Assembly (NCBI RefSeq): GCF_001044395.1 | Contig: NZ_JANU01000002.1 | Coordinates: forward strand, 62,001 to 126,000 | Source of the DNA: Caenimonas sp. SL110 | Lineage (GTDB): Bacteria > Pseudomonadota > Gammaproteobacteria > Burkholderiales > Burkholderiaceae_C | DNA: 64,000 bases | Direction: 5' to 3' | Shown: positions 7,934-63,047 of the stretch, piece by piece | Layout: every line of letters starts with the position of its first letter | Position numbering within the stretch: the first letter of the stretch is position 1 | Program-made: the position numbers and the translations under genes | Notes under the pieces: generated by a model | What the model saw: only the letters and a program-made list of their open reading frames with translations | What the model was told of the DNA's origin: nothing | The model's database searches: none

Positions 7934-8813
7934 GCGGCCGGGCACGGCTGCGAAGCGCCCGATACAGCCGCCACGCCAGCGGGTGACGATAGCGCCAGGT
8001 CGCTGATCTGGTTTGCCGTTGCAGGTGCGCGTCGTTCAGGCCGTTCGAGCGCATGTAGTGGTCGAACCATGCAAAGAAGTATTCCCGCACCGCCTCCTGC
8101 TTCTCGTCTTGCAGCAGGCGAGCCGACATGGACCGGGAGTGGATGCGGTATCGGTCCCAGCATTGGTCCGTGACGTGCACGGGATAGCGCATGAAGATTC
8201 GGGAAAGAAAGGCGATGTCTTCCCAGGCCGAGTTGTCGCCGCTGAATTCCTCGGCAAAGCCGCCAACGGCGCGGGCGGCATCCACCCGGATCATCAGGTT
8301 GGACGGGCAGGGCGAGCCGCAGGGGCCGAATGGGTAGGTCAGCCGCCTGAGTTCGGGTGGGGCATAGGTTTTGGGTCCAGGCGCCAGAGTGGGTGTCGAG
8401 TCGGGCTCGGGGTCGTCCGGGTTCCAGCTGCGCCAGTACTCGCTCGGCCCCATGAGCATGGCGGCTTGCGGATGCTGGTCCAGCAGCTCGACCTGCCGAG
8501 CCAGTTTGTCCGAATGCCACACATCGTCTGCGTCGAGCAGGGCGATGTATGGGCCGCGCGCCTCTTGCAGGCCGAGGTTGCGGCTGGCGGGCAGGCCGCG
8601 ATTGATGCGTCCTTCATGCGAGAGCACGCGAACACGCAGCGGGTCGGATGCGCGTGCGCGCTCGATGATGCCGGTGCTCGCATCGGTCGATCCGTCATCG
8701 ATCAGCAGCAGCTCCCAGGCATCGAATGTCTGCGCCTTCACGCTCGCTATCGTTTCTTCGAGGAAGGGCGCGGCGTTGAAAACCGGAACGATGATGGACA
8801 CGCGTGGGTTCAT
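7902..8813 (-). CDS. Glycosyltransferase family 2
   Basis: This 303-residue GT-A enzyme starts MNPRVSIIVPVFNAAPFLEE, then has LLLIDDGSTDAS (nucleotide binding) and ALLDADDVWHSDKLARQVE (the DxD-type metal motif). ATG at 8813 is chosen because it puts the canonical SIIVPVFN strand at the N-terminus and overlaps the stop of the upstream gene by 4 bp (8810-8813). It is the last gene of a three-gene reverse-strand operon with a methyltransferase-glycosyltransferase fusion and an ABC exporter. It converges on the deacetylase gene with a 32-bp overlap. The sugar specificity is not predictable. Confidence 0.88.
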   Translation of the reverse strand: MNPRVSIIVPVFNAAPFLEETIASVKAQTFDAWELLLIDDGSTDASTGIIERARASDPLRVRVLSHEGRINRGLPASRNLGLQEARGPYIALLDADDVWHSDKLARQVELLDQHPQAAMLMGPSEYWRSWNPDDPEPDSTPTLAPGPKTYAPPELRRLTYPFGPCGSPCPSNLMIRVDAARAVGGFAEEFSGDNSAWEDIAFLSRIFMRYPVHVTDQCWDRYRIHSRSMSARLLQDEKQEAVREYFFAWFDHYMRSNGLNDAHLQRQTRSATWRYRHPLAWRLYRALRSRARPLKRLMRGRTA

Positions 8814-10573
8814 TGCAGGCTGCGCGGCGTGTGGGTGTCTGGTTTGAACAGTCGTGCGAATTCGCTCCAGCGGCCGGCTTCGCGAAGCGCGCCGTGCAGC
8901 GCGAACAGCGCGACCTTCGCCGACTGGAGCTGCTGCTCGCGGCGGGCCGCCTTGTCCGATGAGGCGACGAGCCTTGCAGCCAGCATCAGCGCGTCGATGG
9001 ACCATCCGGTCAGGCGCGGAAAGTTCGACGCCGCCGCCGACATCCTGCGTTTCCAGGGCGGGGCGGCCAGCAGCTTGCCGAACGTAGGGCGCACACCGAT
9101 GAGTTCGGGGTGCTTGCGATGCAGGCGCACCAGCGCCGCGCCGCCTTCGATCCAGTCGTGGCGCATCTGCACGGCGCCCTTTTGCCATGCGTGCGATGTC
9201 TGCGCGTCGGGCGCAAACACAAAGCGGACTGCGCTGCGCCACAGGCGCAGGCCCAGTTCCTCGTCGAACCTGCGCCGCGCGAAGTTGGCTGTGTCGAATC
9301 CGCCGACTGACGCAAACAGCTCGCGTGAGAGCGAGGTGTTGGGCATCAGCACGGCATCGCCCGGCCAGATGGGTGTCGGGTCGTTCATCAGGCGGCTGAA
9401 CTTCACATCGAAGCTGGCGGCCAGCTGGCTGGAAGAGAAATCTTCGCCCGGTCCCGATGCGAGGATCGGGCCGAAGACGACGCTCGCGTCGCTGCGTTGC
9501 GCATGCGCGGCAAGGTGAGCGGACAGCAGCGTCGGTGGGCAGTGCATGTCATCGTCGATGAACAGCACGATGCGCCCGGTGGCGGCCCGCACGCCCGCAT
9601 TCATGGATGTGGCCTGCCCCAGATTTTCTGGTTGCTCCACCACGGTGAGCCGGCAGGCGGTGTTCAGGCCCTTCAGCATAGCCCCGGTGCCATCGGTGGA
9701 GCCATCGACGACGACGACGATTTCATGGCGATGCGCATCCAGGTCTTGTGCGCATAGCGATGTGATGCATTTCGCCAGGGCATGACTGCGGTTGTAGGTC
9801 GGTATCACCACCGAGATGTCCACGGGCTTGCGCTCGGGGTCTGCCTTCACCGCGCGGATCGTGATGAGCATTGGAAACGCGTCGTCCACATGATTGAGTT
9901 CGCGCGTCGACAGCTCTTGCGCCGCCATGCCCGCAAGGAATGCGATGCAGGTCAGGACATTGCCATGACCTTGCACGCTGACCTGGCCGGGCCCAAAAAC
10001 TTCCGTGAACAGCCGTTCGGCCGAGGCAGGTGTCATGCGCCACTGGTCTGCCTTGCTGTCCGGGTCGATCCGGCTGACCGCAGGAATCGTGGCGAGCAGC
10101 ACGCCCCCGGGCTTGAGCATGCGGTGCGCGTGGTGCAGGGCGCCGCGCAGGTCGTGGATCAGGTGCAGCGTCTGGGTGAGCACGAAGCAATCCATCGCGT
10201 CGGATGGCAGTGCATCTGCAGCGGCGAGGTCGGCGACCAGCGTTGCCAGCGGATTGGCCGCGGCTATGTCGAGCACGTCGGAGCGGGTGACTGCGGTGCC
10301 GAACCTCTGCGTGTATGCCGGGCTTTGCACCTCCAGCACCCGGCCTGTGATATCGCTTCGGTGCTGCGCCAGGAAGCGCTCGATGTAGAAGCGATCGACG
10401 GCGTTGCCGCGGTCAAAGCCCCAGATCGGGCTGATCGGTGTCGTGCGGCGAAGCGTGCCCATGAAGGCGGGGCGGATCACGCGGCGTATCCGGTGCCGGG
10501 TGCTCACGCTGAAGGTGCGCCGAATCCATTGGCGAATCCATTGGCGAAGAGGTTGCATGGACGGAGAGGGCAC
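8810..10573 (-). CDS. Bifunctional SAM methyltransferase-glycosyltransferase family 2 fusion
   Basis: This 587-residue protein has two parts. Residues about 60-245 resemble a class I methyltransferase: GRVLEVQSPAYTQRFG, DVLDIAAANPLATLV, CFVLTQTLHLIHDL and HRMLKPGGVLLATIPAVS follow the order of methyltransferase motifs. From about residue 252 a GT2 domain begins (ISVVIPTYNRSHALAKCI), with EIVVVVDGSTDGT and VLFIDDDMHCPP. It could both methylate and extend a glycan. The first SAM motif is degenerate compared with GxGxG, so the methyltransferase may act on lipid-linked sugar or be weakened. A 12-bp tandem duplication (10521-10544) encodes a repeated IRQW near the N-terminus. Confidence 0.83.
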   Translation of the reverse strand: MPSPSMQPLRQWIRQWIRRTFSVSTRHRIRRVIRPAFMGTLRRTTPISPIWGFDRGNAVDRFYIERFLAQHRSDITGRVLEVQSPAYTQRFGTAVTRSDVLDIAAANPLATLVADLAAADALPSDAMDCFVLTQTLHLIHDLRGALHHAHRMLKPGGVLLATIPAVSRIDPDSKADQWRMTPASAERLFTEVFGPGQVSVQGHGNVLTCIAFLAGMAAQELSTRELNHVDDAFPMLITIRAVKADPERKPVDISVVIPTYNRSHALAKCITSLCAQDLDAHRHEIVVVVDGSTDGTGAMLKGLNTACRLTVVEQPENLGQATSMNAGVRAATGRIVLFIDDDMHCPPTLLSAHLAAHAQRSDASVVFGPILASGPGEDFSSSQLAASFDVKFSRLMNDPTPIWPGDAVLMPNTSLSRELFASVGGFDTANFARRRFDEELGLRLWRSAVRFVFAPDAQTSHAWQKGAVQMRHDWIEGGAALVRLHRKHPELIGVRPTFGKLLAAPPWKRRMSAAASNFPRLTGWSIDALMLAARLVASSDKAARREQQLQSAKVALFALHGALREAGRWSEFARLFKPDTHTPRSLQ

Positions 10574-10576
10574 GGG

Positions 10577-12247
10577 TCATTCTGGCGCAGTGCGCGCACC
10601 CTGCGTGATGGAGCAGATCCTGGAGTCATGCATGGCGACGATGCGGTCGGCCAGTGCGAGGCTGGCGGGCCGGTGCGTGATGAGAATGACGGTGCGGTTG
10701 GCCAGCGCCGCTTCGCAATCGCTGATGAACGCCTGCTCGCCCGCAGGATCGAACATGGCGGTGGCTTCGTCGAGCACGAGGATGCGCGGGTCCTTGAGCA
10801 GCGCGCGCGCAAGGGCAATGCGCTGGCGCTGGCCGCCCGACAGGCGCACGCCCTGGTCGCCGATGAGTGTGTCGTAGCCTTGCGGCAGCTGCGCGATGAA
10901 GGTGTGGGCTTGCGCAACCTCGGCTGCATGCGCGATGGCCGCTGCAGTGGCTTCGGGCCGGCCGTAAGCGATGTTCTCGCGCACGGTGCCATTGAACAGC
11001 AGGACGTGCTGGGGAACGACCCCGATCTGGCTTCGCAGGCTCTTGAGGCTGACCGTTGCGATGTCGATGCCGTCCACCAGGATCTCGCCGGATTGGGGTT
11101 CGTGCAGGCGCATCAGCAGGTGCGTGAGGGTGCTCTTGCCGGCGCCATTTGCACCGGTGATGGCGATGCGCTCGCCGGCTGCGATTTTCAGGTCGATGCC
11201 ACTGAGGGCAGCGGGCCGTCCGGGGTAGCTGAAGCTGACGTTGCGAAATTCAATGTCGCCGTGCAGTGGCGGCACGTCGTGCCCCGCCTGGGCGATGGCT
11301 TCGGGCTTTTCGGTGAGCACGTGCATCAGGCGCGCGAGCGTTCCGCGTGCCATCTGGAACTGGCCCCACACGCCCGCCAGCGACGACACCGGCCGCACGA
11401 TGAGCGCGCCGTAAAGCAGGAAGCTCACCAGTTGCGCCGCGTCCATCCGCGCTGTGCCCAGCCGTTCACCTGCGACCCACAGCAGCAGCACGACAGAGGC
11501 CGCTGCCATGATCTGGACCAAGGGTTCGAGCGCAGAGTAGATGCGCAGTTCTTTCAGCCCCAGCGATCGCACGCGTTCGACCTGGCGTGCGTACCGATCC
11601 GATTCGTGCAGCTCTCGCGTGAACGTCTTGATGGCCGGGAGCATGACCAGGTTTTCTCCGGCGACGGAGATCGCCTGTGCATCGGCGCGCTGGATTTCGC
11701 GAGCCAGCGGACGCAGGCGCCGCCCAACGATCTTGGCCACGAGAAAAAAGCCTGGCACAAGGAACGCCACGAGCGCCGCGAGCAGGGGATCGACCCTGAA
11801 CATCAGGATCAACGCGCCCGTCACGGTCAGCAGCAGCGCAGGAATCGACAGCAGCGTCTGGGTGATGAAGCCGGCCAGCTGCGCTGCTTCGTAAGTCAGG
11901 AGCGCAAGGATGTCGCCCTGGTTGCGCTTGTGATGGAACTGCAACGGCAGCGCCTGCAGGTGGTCATAGACGCGTGTTCGCAATTCGGCGAGCACGCCTG
12001 CAGCCGCCGCGCCCGAGACGTAGTTGCTGGCAAATTTGAGCAGCGCCTGAACGACCAGGACGCCCAGCAGTGCGAGCAGGATCGGGCCGGTGGACGCCGG
12101 CGCATCGGACAGCATGAGCGCGGCGTAGCGCCCGCCCAGCCACGGAATGCACAGGGACGCCGCCGTATCCAGCAGCGTCAACATGACAGCAAGGGACAGC
12201 TGGAAGCGATAGGGGGCGGCATGGCCGACGATTGCGCGAAGCGTCAT
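10577..12247 (-). CDS. ABC exporter, fused permease and ATPase (MsbA-like)
   Basis: This 556-residue half-transporter has six membrane segments in residues 15-300, then a nucleotide-binding domain. Walker A (GANGAGKST) is at about 365-373, followed by the signature LSGGQRQRIALARAL, Walker B (RILVLDEATAMFD) and the H-loop (ITHRP). It should work as a homodimer exporting a lipid, lipid-linked glycan or peptide. The stop is 3 bp upstream of the next gene's start, so it leads an operon with two glycosyltransferases and may export their product. It is divergent from the glycosyltransferase at 12386; the 138 bp between presumably holds both promoters. Substrate is unknown. Confidence 0.88.
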   Translation of the reverse strand: MTLRAIVGHAAPYRFQLSLAVMLTLLDTAASLCIPWLGGRYAALMLSDAPASTGPILLALLGVLVVQALLKFASNYVSGAAAAGVLAELRTRVYDHLQALPLQFHHKRNQGDILALLTYEAAQLAGFITQTLLSIPALLLTVTGALILMFRVDPLLAALVAFLVPGFFLVAKIVGRRLRPLAREIQRADAQAISVAGENLVMLPAIKTFTRELHESDRYARQVERVRSLGLKELRIYSALEPLVQIMAAASVVLLLWVAGERLGTARMDAAQLVSFLLYGALIVRPVSSLAGVWGQFQMARGTLARLMHVLTEKPEAIAQAGHDVPPLHGDIEFRNVSFSYPGRPAALSGIDLKIAAGERIAITGANGAGKSTLTHLLMRLHEPQSGEILVDGIDIATVSLKSLRSQIGVVPQHVLLFNGTVRENIAYGRPEATAAAIAHAAEVAQAHTFIAQLPQGYDTLIGDQGVRLSGGQRQRIALARALLKDPRILVLDEATAMFDPAGEQAFISDCEAALANRTVILITHRPASLALADRIVAMHDSRICSITQGARTAPE

Positions 12248-55587: not shown

Positions 55588-55632
55588 GATGGGCCTATTG
55601 TCCGCAACTCCATGGGTGCTGGACTTTGTTCC

Positions 55633-55638
55633 TACAAT
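55633..55638 (+). promoter_or_regulatory. Candidate -10 element for metH N-terminal gene
   Basis: TACAAT ends 9 bp before the ATG at 55648, implying a very short leader. The -35 region is unclear. It lies between divergent recQ and metH starts. Confidence 0.4.
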
Positions 55639-55647
55639 GCCCTCACC

Positions 55648-56724
55648 ATGAAACCCATCGTGTACACCCGTGGCCAGGCGCTGGCCGACATCCTGGAGCA
55701 ACGCATCGCCATCCTCGACGGCGCGATGGGCACGATGATCCAGCGTTTCAAGCTCACCGAGGCCGACTACCGAGGCATGTCGAGCGCGACCCCGGCAGGG
55801 GCTCGCGACCGATTCAAGGACCATCACAAGGACCTGCGCAACAACGGCGACCTGCTGAGCCTGACGCGTCCCGACGTGATCCGCGACATCCACGAGGCGT
55901 ACCTTGCCAGCGGCGCGGACATCCTGGAAACCAACACCTTCGGTGCGACCAGCATTGCGCAGGACGACTACGACCTGGGCTACCTCGCCAAAGAGATGAA
56001 CCTGGCATCCGCCAAACTCGCGCGGGCGGCTGCCGACAAGTTTTCCACGCCAGACAAGCCGCGATTCGTGGCTGGCGCTCTCGGCCCCACACCCAAGACC
56101 GCCAGCATCAGCCCCGATGTCAACGACCCGGCCGCACGCAACGTCGATTTCGAGAAGCTGCGCGCTGCGTACTACGAGCAGGTCGAAGGCCTGGTCGAAG
56201 GCGGCTCTGACCTCCTGCTGGTGGAAACGATTTTCGACACGCTCAACGCCAAGGCGGCGCTGTTTGCCATCGACGAGTACTTCGTCAACACCGGGGAGCG
56301 GCTGCCCATCATCATCAGCGGCACCGTGACCGATGCCTCGGGCCGCATCCTGAGCGGCCAGACCGTGACGGCGTTCTGGTACAGCGTGCGGCATGCGCAG
56401 CCGCTGGCCATCGGACTGAATTGCGCGCTGGGCGCTGCGTTGATGCGACCCTATATCCAGGAGCTGGCGCGTGTTGCGCCTGACACCTTCATCAGCTGCT
56501 ACCCGAATGCGGGACTGCCCAATCCGATGAGCGAAACCGGATTCGACGAAACCCCCGAGGTGACTTCGCGCCTGTTGCGCGAGTTCGCGGCCGAGGGCCT
56601 GGTCAACATCGTCGGCGGCTGCTGCGGCACGACGCCCGATCACATCGGCGCCATTCGCGAGGCGGTGCAACCGCTGGCCGCACGCTCGCGACAGCGCGAG
56701 TTCTTCTACAAGGAAGCGGCCTGA
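55648..56724 (+). CDS. metH: Methionine synthase, homocysteine-binding subunit (N-terminal half)
   Basis: This 358-residue protein is the homocysteine S-methyltransferase domain of Met[19 protein letters not shown], the zinc Cys in [11 protein letters not shown] and the Cys pair in [16 protein letters not shown]. It binds homocysteine through zinc and takes the methyl group from cobalamin on the other half (60.3 kb). In many Burkholderiales MetH is encoded by two adjacent genes; here they are 3.6 kb apart with unrelated genes between. A hairpin terminator follows at 56768. Confidence 0.93.
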
Positions 56725-56767
56725 GGCTTTTGGCCCGGCGCCGCACCTTCTTTCGATCAATCAAGCT

Positions 56768-56803
56768 GGCTGGCGGGCGGTAACCCGCCAGCCACTTGTT
56801 TTT
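56768..56803 (+). terminator. Intrinsic terminator after metH N-terminal gene
   Basis: GGCTGGCGGG-CGGTAA-CCCGCCAGCC forms a 10-bp perfect stem, then ACTTG and five T residues. It lies 43 bp after the stop. Confidence 0.8.
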
Positions 56804-56903
56804 CCGCCTGACCGGTAGGTCCCTTGGAATGCTCCAAGTGTGGCGGTCACGCGTCCAAAAGTCTTCCCGAAGTTTCCGTGGTTTGCAACCCAAACAGCAA
56901 AAC

Positions 56904-56933
56904 TTCCTGAATTGATGGGATCAAGCAGATAAT
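56904..56933 (+). promoter_or_regulatory. Candidate promoter of the second Lrp gene
   Basis: TTCCTG (56904-56909) and GATAAT (56928-56933), 18 bp apart, precede ATG at 56942. GATGGGATC and TTGAT/ATCAA repeats overlap it, as expected for autoregulation. Confidence 0.45.
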
Positions 56934-56941
56934 CCATCGAC

Positions 56942-57391
56942 ATGGACGCAATCGACCGGAAAATATTGACAGTTCTGCAGGCCAATGCCCGCGCCAGCCT
57001 GCAGGAGATCGGGCAGGCCGTCGGCCTGTCCACTTCGCCGTGCTGGGAGCGCATCCGCAAGATGGAGCTCGGCGGCGTGATCGAGGGCTACACGGTGCGC
57101 CTGTCCGCCCAGGCGCTGGGGCTGGCGGACACCGTGCTGGTGCAGGTCACGCTCGATAGCCACTCGGACAACACGCTGGAAAAGTTCGGCGAGGTCCTGG
57201 CGGCGATCCCGGAAGTGATCGAGGCCTACCTGGTGTCGGGCGACTATGACTACCTGCTGCGCGTGGCCGTCAAAGACACGCGTGATTACGAGCGCTTGCT
57301 GCGCGAGAAGCTCTACAAGATTCGCGGCATCCGCCACAGCAAGTCGAGCTTCGTGCTGCGCACGCTCAAGAAGGCCGATCTTCCGCTGTAG
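56942..57391 (+). CDS. Lrp/AsnC family transcriptional regulator
   Basis: This 149-residue protein has an HTH (IDRKILTVLQANARASLQEI, GQAVGLSTSPCWERIRKMEL) and a RAM domain (YLVSGDYDYLLRVAVKDTRD). It is a paralogue of the 53.1-kb regulator and is about 45 % similar by eye in the HTH. It lies between the metH halves. A strong terminator at 57522 ends its transcript after 130 bp of structured 3' sequence. Confidence 0.92.
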   Translation: MDAIDRKILTVLQANARASLQEIGQAVGLSTSPCWERIRKMELGGVIEGYTVRLSAQALGLADTVLVQVTLDSHSDNTLEKFGEVLAAIPEVIEAYLVSGDYDYLLRVAVKDTRDYERLLREKLYKIRGIRHSKSSFVLRTLKKADLPL

Positions 57392-57521
57392 AGCAGCGCC
57401 AACGCAGCAAAGCGGCCCGATCAAGGGAAGTTCCTGATTTTCGGGCACGAGTCGTGCTTGTAAGCTGGGGTCTCTTCGGTTGGGCGCTTATTTGCAAGTT
57501 TCTTCTGCCCGACCCACTCGC

Positions 57522-57556
57522 ATCCCCCGGAACGGGAAGGTTCCGGGGGATTTTTT
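57522..57556 (+). terminator. Strong intrinsic terminator, 12-bp stem
   Basis: ATCCCCCGGAAC-GGGAAG-GTTCCGGGGGAT followed by TTTTT, among the strongest in the window. It ends either the lrp transcript or a short RNA beginning near 57465. The preceding bases (57478-57517) contain GGTTGGGC and GCCCGACC, which can pair over a 21-base loop. Confidence 0.92.
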
Positions 57557-58164
57557 CATGCCGCGATCGAACAGAGCGGTTTGGGGGCGCCTGCCAGGGT
57601 GCTGACAGGTGTTGCATACGGGGTGACGCTTCCCGAAAACTGCGATTCGGGACCTATCTGCCGCGAGTTGATGTGGTCTCGATTCAACAGCCGGACCAGT
57701 GACCTCTCGCTTGCCGCTATCAGTTGCGTAACACCGAGCAACCTCGCCGTTCGAAAGAGTTCGCGGTAAAGCTGCAAAGCCACTTTGGTGCCGGAGTGAT
57801 CGCCACGATTGCGACTCATAACCAAGCGGCTGACTTCTGCCGAACGCAGCGGTGCCCGTCGAATTGCGTCGAGCTCTTGTGGATAGAGCGAGCAATAGCG
57901 CAGCAGGGGAAATCCATGATTGCCGTGCAGCACCAATCTCACGGCGGCAGTGATGCACCCAGATGTGTCGACTGCACAGTAGTGGATGGAGCTGTCGTCG
58001 AATTCATCCGATTCGCGCCCTTCTGGGTAGCGGCTTGCATCCAGGAAATTGCGTTCGACGCAATACACCTGATATCGAAGCCGCTGGATCTGGTCAAAGA
58101 GGTTCGTGTCGACGTCGGCTCTGCGAATTTCCAGTGCGTGTGGTCGAGTGACAAATGTTTCCAT
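57556..58164 (-). CDS. FeeM/exosortase-associated-type N-acyltransferase (autoinducer-synthase fold)
   Basis: This 202-residue protein has the acyl-homoserine-lactone-synthase/GNAT pattern DQIQRLRYQVYCVERNFLDA, YPEGRESDEFDDSSIHYCAV, RLVLHGNHGFPLLRYCSL and AEVSRLVMSRNR. These features fit N-acyl amino acid synthases (FeeM) and the PEP-CTERM/exosortase-associated acyltransferase family, which use acyl-ACP to acylate an amino group. GGAG precedes the ATG by five bases. It is divergent from a ThiF-like enzyme with 165 bp between, and together they suggest a small acylated metabolite. No PEP-CTERM protein or exosortase is in the window. Confidence 0.75.
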   Translation of the reverse strand: METFVTRPHALEIRRADVDTNLFDQIQRLRYQVYCVERNFLDASRYPEGRESDEFDDSSIHYCAVDTSGCITAAVRLVLHGNHGFPLLRYCSLYPQELDAIRRAPLRSAEVSRLVMSRNRGDHSGTKVALQLYRELFRTARLLGVTQLIAASERSLVRLLNRDHINSRQIGPESQFSGSVTPYATPVSTLAGAPKPLCSIAA

Positions 58165-58176
58165 GGCGGCTCCGAA

Positions 58177-58192
58177 TGAACTGAAGGTGAAC
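58177..58192 (-). promoter_or_regulatory. TGAAC-N6-TGAAC direct repeat at the acyltransferase start
   Basis: TGAAC at 58177 and 58188 with 11-bp period, like the PhoP-type boxes at 29.5 and 31.9 kb, but only 13 bp from the ATG, so it would overlap the leader. It could be a repressor site, or chance. The spacer also holds GTCTC-GTC-GAGAC (58235-58247). Confidence 0.35.
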
Positions 58193-58329
58193 TCAGCCTA
58201 TCGATGCACACCCGAGCCGCGCACTTGTTCGTTCGTCTCGTCGAGACCTCTAATCACCCAATACCTTTGGCCCGCTGTCGAAGCGCACGTTCGTCCCTAC
58301 TCTTGTAGAGAACACCAGCCGAGGATGTC

Positions 58330-59190
58330 ATGAGCAGCGATTTTTCCTACGCCACGCACACAGTTCGCAATCGTGGCTACATTGCTGCGCCGACCCAGGC
58401 TTCAATACGCGAGTCGACCCTGCTCATTGCCGGCTGCGGCATTGGCAGCTCCGTGGCGGTGGCTGCGACGCGGATGGGCTTCGAAAAATTCATCCTGGCC
58501 GACGGCGATGTCGTCGATGCACACAATCTGAATCGGCAGTTTTACAGCTTCGCAGATGTGGGAAAACCAAAGGTCAAGGCTTTGGAGTCGGCGATTGTGG
58601 CCATCAATCCCGCTGCATCAGTGACAACCGTTCAGGCGCATCTGGATGCACAGAACACGAGAGCCGTCGTTGCGCAGTCCGATCTCATCGTAGACACAGT
58701 CGATTTTCTTGATCTGCCGGCCATTTTGCGGCTTCATGACGAAGCACGGGCGCAGCACAAACCGATCGTGACGGCATTGAGTGTGGGCTTCGGCGCTCTG
58801 GTCTGGTACTTCCCGTCCGGCTCTAAAACCAGTCTGCGCACGATGCTACAAGCCGACATGGACCCGCTTGACGGCACCGCTTCGTACGCAAAAGTATTCA
58901 GCAAGTTCTTCGGTCGCCTTAGCGGATCAATGGACACTGAAGTCGTTGACAACGTGAGTGAAGTGATCGTGCGGATGCGCAGCGGCGAGCCTTGTCCCGC
59001 ATCGCAGGTCGTCGTGGGTAGTTTCGGCATCGCCGCGTTGGCGCTGTCGATGATCCGGGACATTTACTCTGGCACTCCGGTGCCGCAAGCGCCAACCATG
59101 GTTTTTCATAGCTTCGGCACACATCGAACAGAGATGATCGACGTGGCTGTCCTCTCTGCCCCAGCTAGTCCTGACCTTCAACCTCGATGA
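58330..59190 (+). CDS. ThiF/E1-like adenylyltransferase (HesA/MoeB type)
   Basis: This 286-residue protein has the E1-like nucleotide-binding fold: LLIAGCGIGSSVAVAATRMG, FILADGDVVDAHNLNRQFYS (Arg of NLNRQ) and GKPKVKALESAIVAINP (Lys and catalytic region). No zinc CxxC pairs or obvious catalytic Cys after the adenylation site are seen, resembling MccB or ThiF-type enzymes that adenylate a peptide or acyl C-terminus. No ubiquitin-like or E2 protein is nearby. It is divergent from the acyltransferase, and the two may act in sequence. Function not assigned. Confidence 0.78.
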   Translation: MSSDFSYATHTVRNRGYIAAPTQASIRESTLLIAGCGIGSSVAVAATRMGFEKFILADGDVVDAHNLNRQFYSFADVGKPKVKALESAIVAINPAASVTTVQAHLDAQNTRAVVAQSDLIVDTVDFLDLPAILRLHDEARAQHKPIVTALSVGFGALVWYFPSGSKTSLRTMLQADMDPLDGTASYAKVFSKFFGRLSGSMDTEVVDNVSEVIVRMRSGEPCPASQVVVGSFGIAALALSMIRDIYSGTPVPQAPTMVFHSFGTHRTEMIDVAVLSAPASPDLQPR

Positions 59191-59452
59191 CGCCATCGCA
59201 GACGTTGTTGGTGAACGCCAGCGCGATATGGAATCCGACCCGCTTCCACTCCAGGATCTCGCGATTGGGCGCGGTCCGGCTTCGGTGGCCGGGTTTGCCG
59301 ACCAGTTTCAGGATTTCGTCGAGCGTTCGGCCCGTTAATGGTGCGAGACGCTTGAACCGGTTCTTCAGGCGGGCGGCCCGGACCGCGCAGATGAACGCGA
59401 TCATGATCGACAGGACGACGAGATAGGCCAGGAGTGCTGCGAATGTGGTCAC
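59165..59452 (-). CDS. Small membrane-anchored BamE-fold-like protein
   Basis: This 95-residue protein has an N-terminal membrane helix (LAYLVVLSIMIAFICAVRAA), then a domain similar to SmpA/BamE-like proteins: LTGRTLDEILKLVGKPGHRS, then EWKRVGFHIALAFTNNVCDG. Membrane topology is N-terminus in the membrane, domain in the cytoplasm or periplasm. Its C-terminal 26 bases overlap the ThiF gene end. No function is known. Confidence 0.6.
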   Translation of the reverse strand: MTTFAALLAYLVVLSIMIAFICAVRAARLKNRFKRLAPLTGRTLDEILKLVGKPGHRSRTAPNREILEWKRVGFHIALAFTNNVCDGVIEVEGQD

Positions 59453-59491
59453 GCCGGGCAGTTTATCCGCAGGACCTCTGACCAGCCCAAT

Positions 59492-60148
59492 CTAGTGGTG
59501 CAAGGCCTCGTGCTCCATCAGCTCATGGATCTCTTCGTTCATCGCCTGGGTCAGCTGCGAATAGAGCTTGAGCTTGTCCTGCGTGTCGCGCATACGCTGC
59601 GCAATCCGCAACGAGATCGCCATCATCAGCTTGGCCGCCGTGCGCGGGTCTTCGTCCAGCAGTTCATTGAGCGCCTCTCGCGTGAGCATGGCGCAGCGCA
59701 GGTCGTTCATCGCGATGCAGGATGCAGAACGCGGCGCGCCGTCGAGCAACCCGATCTCGCCGATGATGCTGCCGGGGCCGAGCACGGTGGCCGTGATGGG
59801 CTCGCTGCGGCTCACCACGATGTTTTCCACGGTCACTTCGCCGTGCAGCACGAGCAGCATGAAGTCGGTGTTGTGGGCATCGCCTTCGCGGATGAACGTC
59901 CGGCCCTGCGGAATGCGGCAGGGCTTCATGAATGACACCACCCGCAGCGCCTCCTGCATGCTCAGCTGCATGAGTGCACTGGGCGCGCACAGCATTTGGG
60001 CGGCGCGCTCGGCCGAATTCGACCCGGCGATCTTGCGCCGCCGGTCCCTGGCCTGGCGCGATTCCACGAAGTCCGGCGCAGGGTTGCGACCGAACAATCG
60101 CCCCAGCAAACCGGGCAGCGGATGGCGGATGGCGTCGTGGTGGTGCAT
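59492..60148 (-). CDS. Cyclic-nucleotide-binding domain protein without DNA-binding domain
   Basis: This 218-residue protein has a Crp/Fnr-type cyclic nucleotide-binding domain at about 60-180, with phosphate-binding cassette SIIGEIGLLDGAPRSASCIA. The last 35 residues are a helix without a helix-turn-helix, so it is not a Crp-type regulator. It may instead bind cAMP or c-di-GMP as a signalling module. It is divergent from the SAH-riboswitch-controlled metH gene. ATG at 60148. Confidence 0.82.
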   Translation of the reverse strand: MHHHDAIRHPLPGLLGRLFGRNPAPDFVESRQARDRRRKIAGSNSAERAAQMLCAPSALMQLSMQEALRVVSFMKPCRIPQGRTFIREGDAHNTDFMLLVLHGEVTVENIVVSRSEPITATVLGPGSIIGEIGLLDGAPRSASCIAMNDLRCAMLTREALNELLDEDPRTAAKLMMAISLRIAQRMRDTQDKLKLYSQLTQAMNEEIHELMEHEALHH

Positions 60149-60163
60149 TTAGAATGAATGCTA

Positions 60164-60232
60164 TTTCAAGGAGCGCTGCAGCCCCTAGGCCGATTGCCTA
60201 AGGGCCAGGCTTGAAAATACCTAACCGCGCTC
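60164..60232 (+). promoter_or_regulatory. S-adenosylhomocysteine (SAH) riboswitch
   Basis: P1 TTTCAAG/CTTGAAA (60164-60170, 60210-60216) encloses GGAGCGCTGCAGC and a second stem (GCCCCTAGGC/GCCTAAGGGC). The pseudoknot GAGCGC (60171-60176) pairs exactly with GCGCTC (60227-60232). Conserved GCTGCAGC, GCCAGGCTTG and CGCGCTCACC match the SAH riboswitch. It should switch on metH when SAH is high, aiding SAH recycling. Confidence 0.92.
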
Positions 60233-60290
60233 ACCTTCAGGTTTTTGTCATGGCCGGCCGCAGCCGGTTTGCAAGCAAGGTGAGACAGTC

Positions 60291-63047
<2,757 letters not shown>

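Follow-up and report, generated by a model that had tools for sequence, protein, structure and literature searches.

Several pathways have been described in which an N-acyl amino acid synthase (NAS) works beside an ATP-dependent cyclase of the ThiF type. TyzA N-acylates tyrosine or phenylalanine, TyzB cyclises the product with ATP and TyzC desaturates it (PMC10404671). TrzAS performs the same chemistry with tryptophan, cyclisation preceding desaturation, and with TyzA and TyzB alone in vivo the cyclised intermediate was not detected (PMC12856293). Clusters of NAS, ThiF and nitroreductase genes have been linked to N-acyl dehydrotyrosines, and NAS and ThiF genes are neighbours in the stieleriacine, kyonggic acid and thalassotalic acid clusters, one of which lies in the kyonggic acid producer M. 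kyonggiensis (PMC12479983). Here we report on a gene pair of related composition in Caenimonas sp. SL110, located in a stretch of 64,000 nucleotides that was analysed as a whole and is called the window below. It consists of a FeeM-type NAS gene and a gene for a ThiF/E1-family protein whose nearest solved relative is AclA from Tenacibaculum discolor. The pair has the adjoining NAS and ThiF genes in common with OxzAB, TyzACB, TrzAS and the dehydrotyrosine clusters; however, whereas OxzAB, TyzACB and TrzAS include a flavin oxidase of the nitroreductase type, either adjacent or fused, and the dehydrotyrosine clusters have a nitroreductase, none was detected at 19 window-type loci scanned with a 13-row flavin oxidase profile (best E-value 1.3; 19 kb at the window locus). 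We propose, with a probability of roughly 0.6, that the pair is a two-enzyme module, NAS plus AclA-like ThiF, for a cyclised N-acyl amino acid.

The first-pass annotation of this DNA had held that such a pairing was not an established pathway. That view is not borne out, since oxazolone pathways built from NAS, ThiF and an oxidase are characterised (PMC10404671, PMC12856293) and dehydrotyrosine clusters are described (PMC12479983). The general chemistry of NAS with ThiF is already known, and what appears to be new is the oxidase-free, AclA-like, often exosortase-linked branch. A published ThiF network comprises 2416 proteins in 24 subclusters, most of them beside an oxidase, an acyltransferase or both, and part of the present pairing may therefore already be contained in those data (PMC12856293). 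No description of the branch, which that network may include, was found in the literature searched. The features of the locus, in window positions, are:

57556..58164, minus strand: FeeM-type NAS, 202 aa (open reading frame, PF21926, TIGR03694, AlphaFold model, Foldseek)
58330..59190, plus strand: AclA-like ThiF/E1-family protein, predicted ATP-dependent cyclase, 286 aa (PF00899, alignment, structure, tree)
58165..58329, no strand: divergent intergenic region of 165 bp, no sigma-70 consensus match
57522..57556, plus strand: intrinsic terminator with a 12-pair stem and T run, left edge of the inserted block
57557..59190, no strand: low-G+C block (FeeM and ThiF genes), absent at the same site in genome G012; in genome G020 the slot holds a PhoX gene

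Both reading frames lie exactly where they had first been placed, head to head with their starts separated by 165 bp, and the two families originally named are confirmed by Pfam matches to FeeM (PF21926, 1e-13, 51.8 bits against a cut-off of 27) and ThiF (PF00899, 2e-30 over residues 18-209). Judged by eye, a purine-rich ribosome-binding-like stretch ends 5 nt upstream of the ATG in each gene. The intergenic 165 bp had been read as shared promoter DNA: the divergent region is there, but a consensus scan for a sigma-70 promoter returned 0 matches (shuffle mean 0.8), and it is the layout that suggests a shared promoter.

In a tree of ThiF proteins the window protein falls within a clade (97/95) that stands apart from an oxidase-linked group (100/98), the latter represented by proteins of relatives and not by TyzB, OxzB or TrzS. 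A FeeM-type gene adjoins the clade ThiF gene at 19 of 19 examined loci, which come from Massilia, a Rhizobium plasmid and metagenome-assembled genomes (MAGs). The first-pass annotation had named a lack of conserved co-occurrence in other genomes as grounds for refuting a functional pairing, and this check did not refute it; orientation, which was also to be compared, is not conserved: among 18 scored loci, 14 pairs are convergent, 2 divergent (the window and MAG locus L054) and 2 co-directional, with gaps between the NAS and ThiF genes of -21 to 187 bp. Since one constant pair occurs in three arrangements, we argue that the two genes are functionally linked. Twelve of the 18 loci have two NAS genes per ThiF gene (L054, L055, L056, L057, L074, L075, L077, L081, L082, L083, L084, L085), in tandem except at L054 and L057. 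Rows L076 and L080 were dropped as presumed duplicates of L055 and L058, whose contigs have equal lengths, and L086, which has broken frames in a genome that is 48% complete, is included in the 19-locus count and left out of the alignments and the orientation count. The ThiF proteins of L056 and L077 are nearly identical and therefore not independent.

The clade is sparse and patchy in its distribution. Clade-level ThiF proteins were found in 2 of 299 genomes of the family sample (the window genome, G000, and G121; 14 other matching genomes gave distant matches only), in 3 of 399 of the order sample, in 1 of 398 of the phylum sample (the window genome itself) and in 13 of 245 genomes of family f8, which we infer to contain Massilia. 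Within the window genus the protein occurs in 1 of 60 genomes, again the window genome, with no orthologue in the others; in a search of 60 relatives, the highest-scoring match apart from the protein itself has 34% identity, across a portion of its length. A scan of genome contigs gave at least 5 strong clade ThiF matches among the matches listed. These counts are a lower bound, and the weak matches L059 and L060 (31%) stand outside the examined loci. Of the 134 plasmid records that matched ThiF, one held a clade member; it is a Rhizobium leguminosarum plasmid, which is also the sole plasmid record with a NAS match. The Rhizobium pair (L046, 4360-7974) follows a GGDEF-EAL gene; genes for cyclic di-GMP flank trzAS in M. 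tuberculosis (PMC12856293).

The window ThiF protein keeps the residues expected of an E1-type adenylating enzyme, namely R13, G35/G37/G39, D58, D60, N66, N68, R69, Q70, K81, D122 and D125. The roles of the E1 glycine loop, of the Arg finger and of the Asp, Asn, Arg and Lys residues are established in the superfamily, and each of the 18 clade rows has them all. Compared with the other 17, the window protein deviates at four otherwise fixed positions, each time conservatively (V90, V121, V147, I213). Its nearest solved protein is AclA (PDB code 9egb; related entries 9egc and 9egd), which scores 108 bits against the profile, while E. coli ThiF reaches 69 and MoeB 62. The predicted model, with a mean pLDDT of 80.4 and a poor segment at residues 1-15, matched AclA in Foldseek at 3.5e-18 with an r.m.s.d. 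of 2.9 Å, and a VIA superposition of the model yielded Z = 27.9 and an r.m.s.d. of 2.3 Å over 246 residues for AclA and Z = 25.5 for ThiF. A second tree, holding 11 of the 18 clade rows, 8 of the 17 oxidase-linked rows and 8 of the 18 rows labelled 'O', separated the 11 clade rows and two AclA-type rows (AclA and Riemerella) from the remainder at 95/95; two of the 'O' rows, L013 and L014, had fallen among the oxidase-linked rows in the larger ThiF tree. The same 13 rows have in common two one-residue deletions (one within the glycine loop, the other just past NRQ), extra residues (182-183 and 222-224) and seven fixed residues, all of which are absent from 16 oxidase-linked and ThiF/MoeB rows; this count left out the Ensifer row and used chain residues 20-262 only of AclA. 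AclA further has the Q-x-x-VGS motif of the clade, and it is nearest by both sequence and structure. MccB, ThiF and MoeB have the E1-like fold and the adenylation residues in common with the window protein, but they score lower than AclA in the sequence and structure comparisons, and, by eye, the window clade differs from them in having no conserved CxxC. No carrier-protein or precursor-peptide gene was noticed beside the window ThiF gene, where no systematic search was made. Two further plasmid loci are of note: on a Riemerella plasmid (L109, 6986-8493) an AclA-like ThiF gene is convergent with a LuxR-type (GerE) regulator gene, with no FeeM-type gene detected nearby, and on an Ensifer plasmid (L110, 4060-9202) a run of genes, all on one strand, encodes a divergent ThiF, followed in the list by hypothetical proteins and by a protein of the GNAT family.

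The oxidase-linked set may be TyzB-like. Within the stretches covered, thirteen of its 17 members have, or are fused to, an oxidase, and 4 (L037, L038, L041, L045) showed none; a NAS was detected beside 2 only (L024, L026), in a set in which some stretches are 2.6-3.8 kb long. L024 belongs to the window genome itself, where contig C40 carries a NAS-ThiF-nitroreductase operon of the oxazolone/dehydrotyrosine type (8723-9511, 9486-10430, 10427-11515).

The NAS reaches 123.2 bits with the NCBIfam model TIGR03694 (exosortase-associated acyltransferase; cut-off 111.95), and the window NAS and the seven other clade NAS proteins that were scanned all lie above this threshold. The exosortase-associated NAS of TIGR03694 are said to go back to work by Craig et al. 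in 2011, which is cited in PMC4897644. In the alignment the window protein keeps R30, D53, D56, R76, E110, S112 and R113, including the Glu of the E-x-S-R motif. The Arg and Asp residues have known roles in LuxI-type enzymes; for the Glu, the counterpart in Nas354 is essential (PMC4897644). The AlphaFold model (mean pLDDT 86.5) resembles LasI (1.9e-10), BjaI (1.1e-9), RpaI (1.7e-9) and FeeM (2g0b, 3.8e-8) in Foldseek. A third, weaker FeeM match in the genome lies near 9986-10366 of contig C25 (L027, 32.6 bits), with a ThiF match about 52 kb off on the same contig.

We envisage two steps. The NAS would acylate an amino acid on its alpha-amino group, with acyl-ACP or acyl-CoA as donor, as family knowledge and the kept residues suggest; such N-acylation is established for other proteins of the family. 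The AclA-like ThiF protein would then bind the N-acyl amino acid and adenylate its carboxylate with ATP, after which an internal nucleophile would close the ring and AMP would be released, a step predicted from the E1 residues and the relation to AclA. As no flavin oxidase was found beside the ThiF gene, the ring should stay saturated. Substrate and ring type are conjectural. A lactam would be the most likely product, because the ThiF protein groups with AclA and not with the oxidase-linked ThiF proteins, and because an exosortase-associated NAS makes N-acyl-ornithines and -lysines: the Neisseria meningitidis NAS annotated in this way does so (PMC9762135). An acylamino-caprolactam from lysine or an acylamino-piperidone from ornithine is accordingly put forward as a tentative candidate, at somewhat less than even odds, with a saturated oxazolone as the chief other possibility for the ring. 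The first-pass annotation had suggested small-molecule carboxylate adenylation with a lactam among the possible outcomes; the former agrees with the lack of ubiquitin-like (Ubl) and E2 partners among the scanned neighbours, and the latter is plausible with AclA as the closest solved structure. That one branch has a cyclase-type partner at every locus points to further activation, and probably cyclisation, of the NAS product. This makes the product directly testable by mass spectrometry, and with it the ThiF small-molecule cyclases would no longer be confined to oxazolone pathways linked to an oxidase.

In many relatives the pair is found close to XrtA/PEP-CTERM genes. A gene of a TPR-protein cluster and one of a PEP-CTERM cluster adjoin the pair at 12 of 19 loci, each neighbour cluster having been identified by model through a single member at L055, where the TPR protein is PrsT (851 bits) and the PEP-CTERM motif matches at 6.9e-8; the members at L057 are a TPR-rich protein and a weak PEP-CTERM match. 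Genes for XrtA export, chain length and HPr-rel-A lie further out, and in 8 of the 13 f8 genomes with the clade an exosortase gene lies 14.7-17.9 kb from the pair. In four of the 13 the exosortase and ThiF genes are on different contigs, and in G1298 a distance of 2.58 Mb separates ThiF from the closest exosortase. Seven of the 19 loci are without both neighbour clusters (L025, L046, L047, L054, L058, L078, L079), with another PEP-CTERM gene close by at L054; for the Rhizobium strain, the PEP-CTERM search covered the plasmid. We relied on this physical linkage because a co-occurrence statistic (exosortase in 13 of 13 f8 genomes with the clade versus 8 of 12 picked f8 genomes without it, and in 4 of 7 genomes picked from the genus of the window) was too weak and uncorrected for kinship, and was set aside. 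The window genome itself gave 0 matches to PF09721 and PF07589 (exosortase and PEP-CTERM), and G121, which also has the pair, showed neither an exosortase nor a PEP-CTERM match, so the module can stand alone. The earlier statement that the pair has no PEP-CTERM or exosortase partner therefore holds for this genome but masks two things, namely that the NAS belongs to the exosortase-associated family and that in many relatives the pair has XrtA/PEP-CTERM genes nearby. A ThiF protein paired with a PEP-CTERM/exosortase-associated NAS was not found in the literature searched. In Massilia-type relatives the neighbourhood suggests a possible role for the product in the XrtA/PEP-CTERM exopolysaccharide system, whereas in the window genome it must act without an exosortase system. 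It is possible, though we hold it less firmly than the lactam itself, that the oxidase-free NAS and AclA-type cyclase module is an unrecognised companion of exosortase-associated acyltransferases, that it makes saturated N-acyl lactams serving XrtA/PEP-CTERM exopolysaccharide systems as a lipid-lactam signal or surface molecule, and that it has spread horizontally to exosortase-free genomes.

The pair is real, conserved and horizontally moving, and in the window it occupies a variable slot. As first noted, it lies inside a split metH, with the S-methyl_trans half at 55612-56724 and the half for pterin binding, B12 binding and activation at 60291-63047, and the reported dip in G+C is confirmed: the pair block has 57.0% against a window median of 64%, with 56.8% for the FeeM gene, 57.1% for the ThiF gene and 64.3% and 62.9% for the metH halves. 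Among 312 sliding windows of block length, 1 is as low, and third-position G+C is 0.62 for NAS and 0.64 for ThiF versus 0.84-0.89 for the metH, Crp-like and Lrp genes. In G012 the sequence follows the window to 57556, then has 19 bp and resumes at 59526, so that the NAS, ThiF and 95-aa ORF are missing, and in G020 a PhoX-family gene separates the Lrp gene from the 95-aa ORF. The slot inside the metH split (57391-59165) is therefore variable, empty in G012, with PhoX in G020 and with NAS and ThiF in the window, and the foreign block is NAS plus ThiF. The terminator at 57522-57556 shares bases of its T run with the stop codon of the NAS gene, an overlap compatible with truncation or acquisition at this boundary.

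Several points weigh against the proposed module. The NAS-ThiF pathways characterised so far make oxazolones and not lactams. AclA is 25% identical to the window ThiF protein over 241 columns, its Z-score lead over ThiF is modest, and although the AclA-type rows grouped with the clade at 95/95, the branching of AclA relative to the clade is not settled by the tree, whose program flagged long branches meeting and an odd composition in the AclA and Riemerella rows. Whereas the window clade was always found paired with NAS, no FeeM-type gene lies within roughly 7 kb of the AclA-like gene of Riemerella, so the AclA-like family is not always NAS-paired. The literature searched gave no paper on AclA and hence no documented AclA reaction; the structure's entry title says that it was solved with substrate, and the name presumably stands for acyl-cyclolysine. 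The weak point is the window NAS, the most reduced of 30 aligned NAS proteins. It is changed at positions invariant or nearly so in its 29 relatives (G73A, W148L, M152S, Y176F, Y177S), it has no counterpart of a loop of about 25 aa whose Arg is present in 29 of 29 others, and it is short at the C-terminus, where a conserved Leu and Trp are lost; the family models do not formally demand these residues or full length. A search of both remaining minus-strand frames across 57001-58400 gave no significant frameshifted remnant of the C-terminus. With these residues lost, the window NAS may be decaying or altered in specificity.

That the pair is a horizontally acquired remnant, with a degenerating NAS and a window copy that no longer runs the pathway, is the strongest of the alternatives, though we consider it unlikely. 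It draws on the occurrence of the ThiF gene in 1 of 60 genus genomes, the empty site in G012, the foreign third-position G+C and a NAS that is cut short at the insertion boundary and has lost conserved residues, but both frames are open and preceded by ribosome-binding-like sites, the ThiF protein deviates conservatively at just 4 positions fixed in the other 17 rows, and the predicted NAS model is confident to about residue 190 with the catalytic residues kept. This alternative is compatible with the two-enzyme module, which would then apply to the relatives. Slightly less probable is a saturated acyl-oxazolone, for which the ThiF protein would process an N-acyl (aromatic) amino acid in the manner of TyzB or of the cyclase domain of TrzS and either yield the azlactone without desaturation or use the oxidase of the second operon on C40. 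Such a product would match the oxazolones of the characterised pathways, the order of TrzS catalysis, in which cyclisation comes before desaturation (PMC12856293), the presence of the C40 operon in the genome and the 4 of 17 oxidase-linked ThiF proteins that likewise have no detected oxidase nearby. It fits poorly with the position of the window ThiF outside the oxidase-linked clade (97/95 and 100/98, and the indels), with the 19 loci at which no oxidase was detected and with the failure to detect a cyclised intermediate from TyzA and TyzB alone in vivo (PMC12856293).

A cyclisation-free route is more doubtful again: the ThiF protein might adenylate the N-acyl amino acid for transfer to an external acceptor, be it an exopolysaccharide sugar, a PEP-CTERM protein or, through the second NAS, an amine. 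The PrsT-cluster and PEP-CTERM-cluster genes at 12 of 19 loci, the two NAS genes at 12 of 18 and the exosortase 14.7-17.9 kb away in 8 of 13 f8 clade genomes would all suit such a transfer; however, the pair is retained in G000 and G121, neither of which gave an exosortase or PEP-CTERM match, 7 of 19 loci have neither neighbour cluster, and no acceptor gene is constant among the loci. Least probable by a wide measure is a protein-conjugation (Ubl-E1) or defence component. PADLOC E1-E2 models do match the ThiF domain (best 3.2e-19), but the matches are partial, the best one covering residues 20-123, within models of at least 579 positions, the NAS has no PADLOC match and is itself the constant neighbour, and AclA is closer. 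The defence reading was rejected since PADLOC matches an E1 core only, and the earlier observation that ubiquitin-like and E2 partners are missing holds for the scanned neighbours, no genome-wide search for Ubl proteins having been made.

The flanks of the pair comprise an Lrp/AsnC regulator, the 95-aa ORF, a cNMP-binding protein and both metH halves. An Rfam search over 56700-60300 gave one match, an S-adenosylhomocysteine (SAH) riboswitch at 60162-60239 on the plus strand (RF01057, 52.8 bits, gathering threshold 37), ahead of the second metH half. A conserved element of about 113 bp at 57444-57556, also on the plus strand and with no Rfam match, ends in a strong terminator; it is possibly a small RNA or an attenuator, and it is matched at or near metH-N in some relatives without the NAS-ThiF pair.

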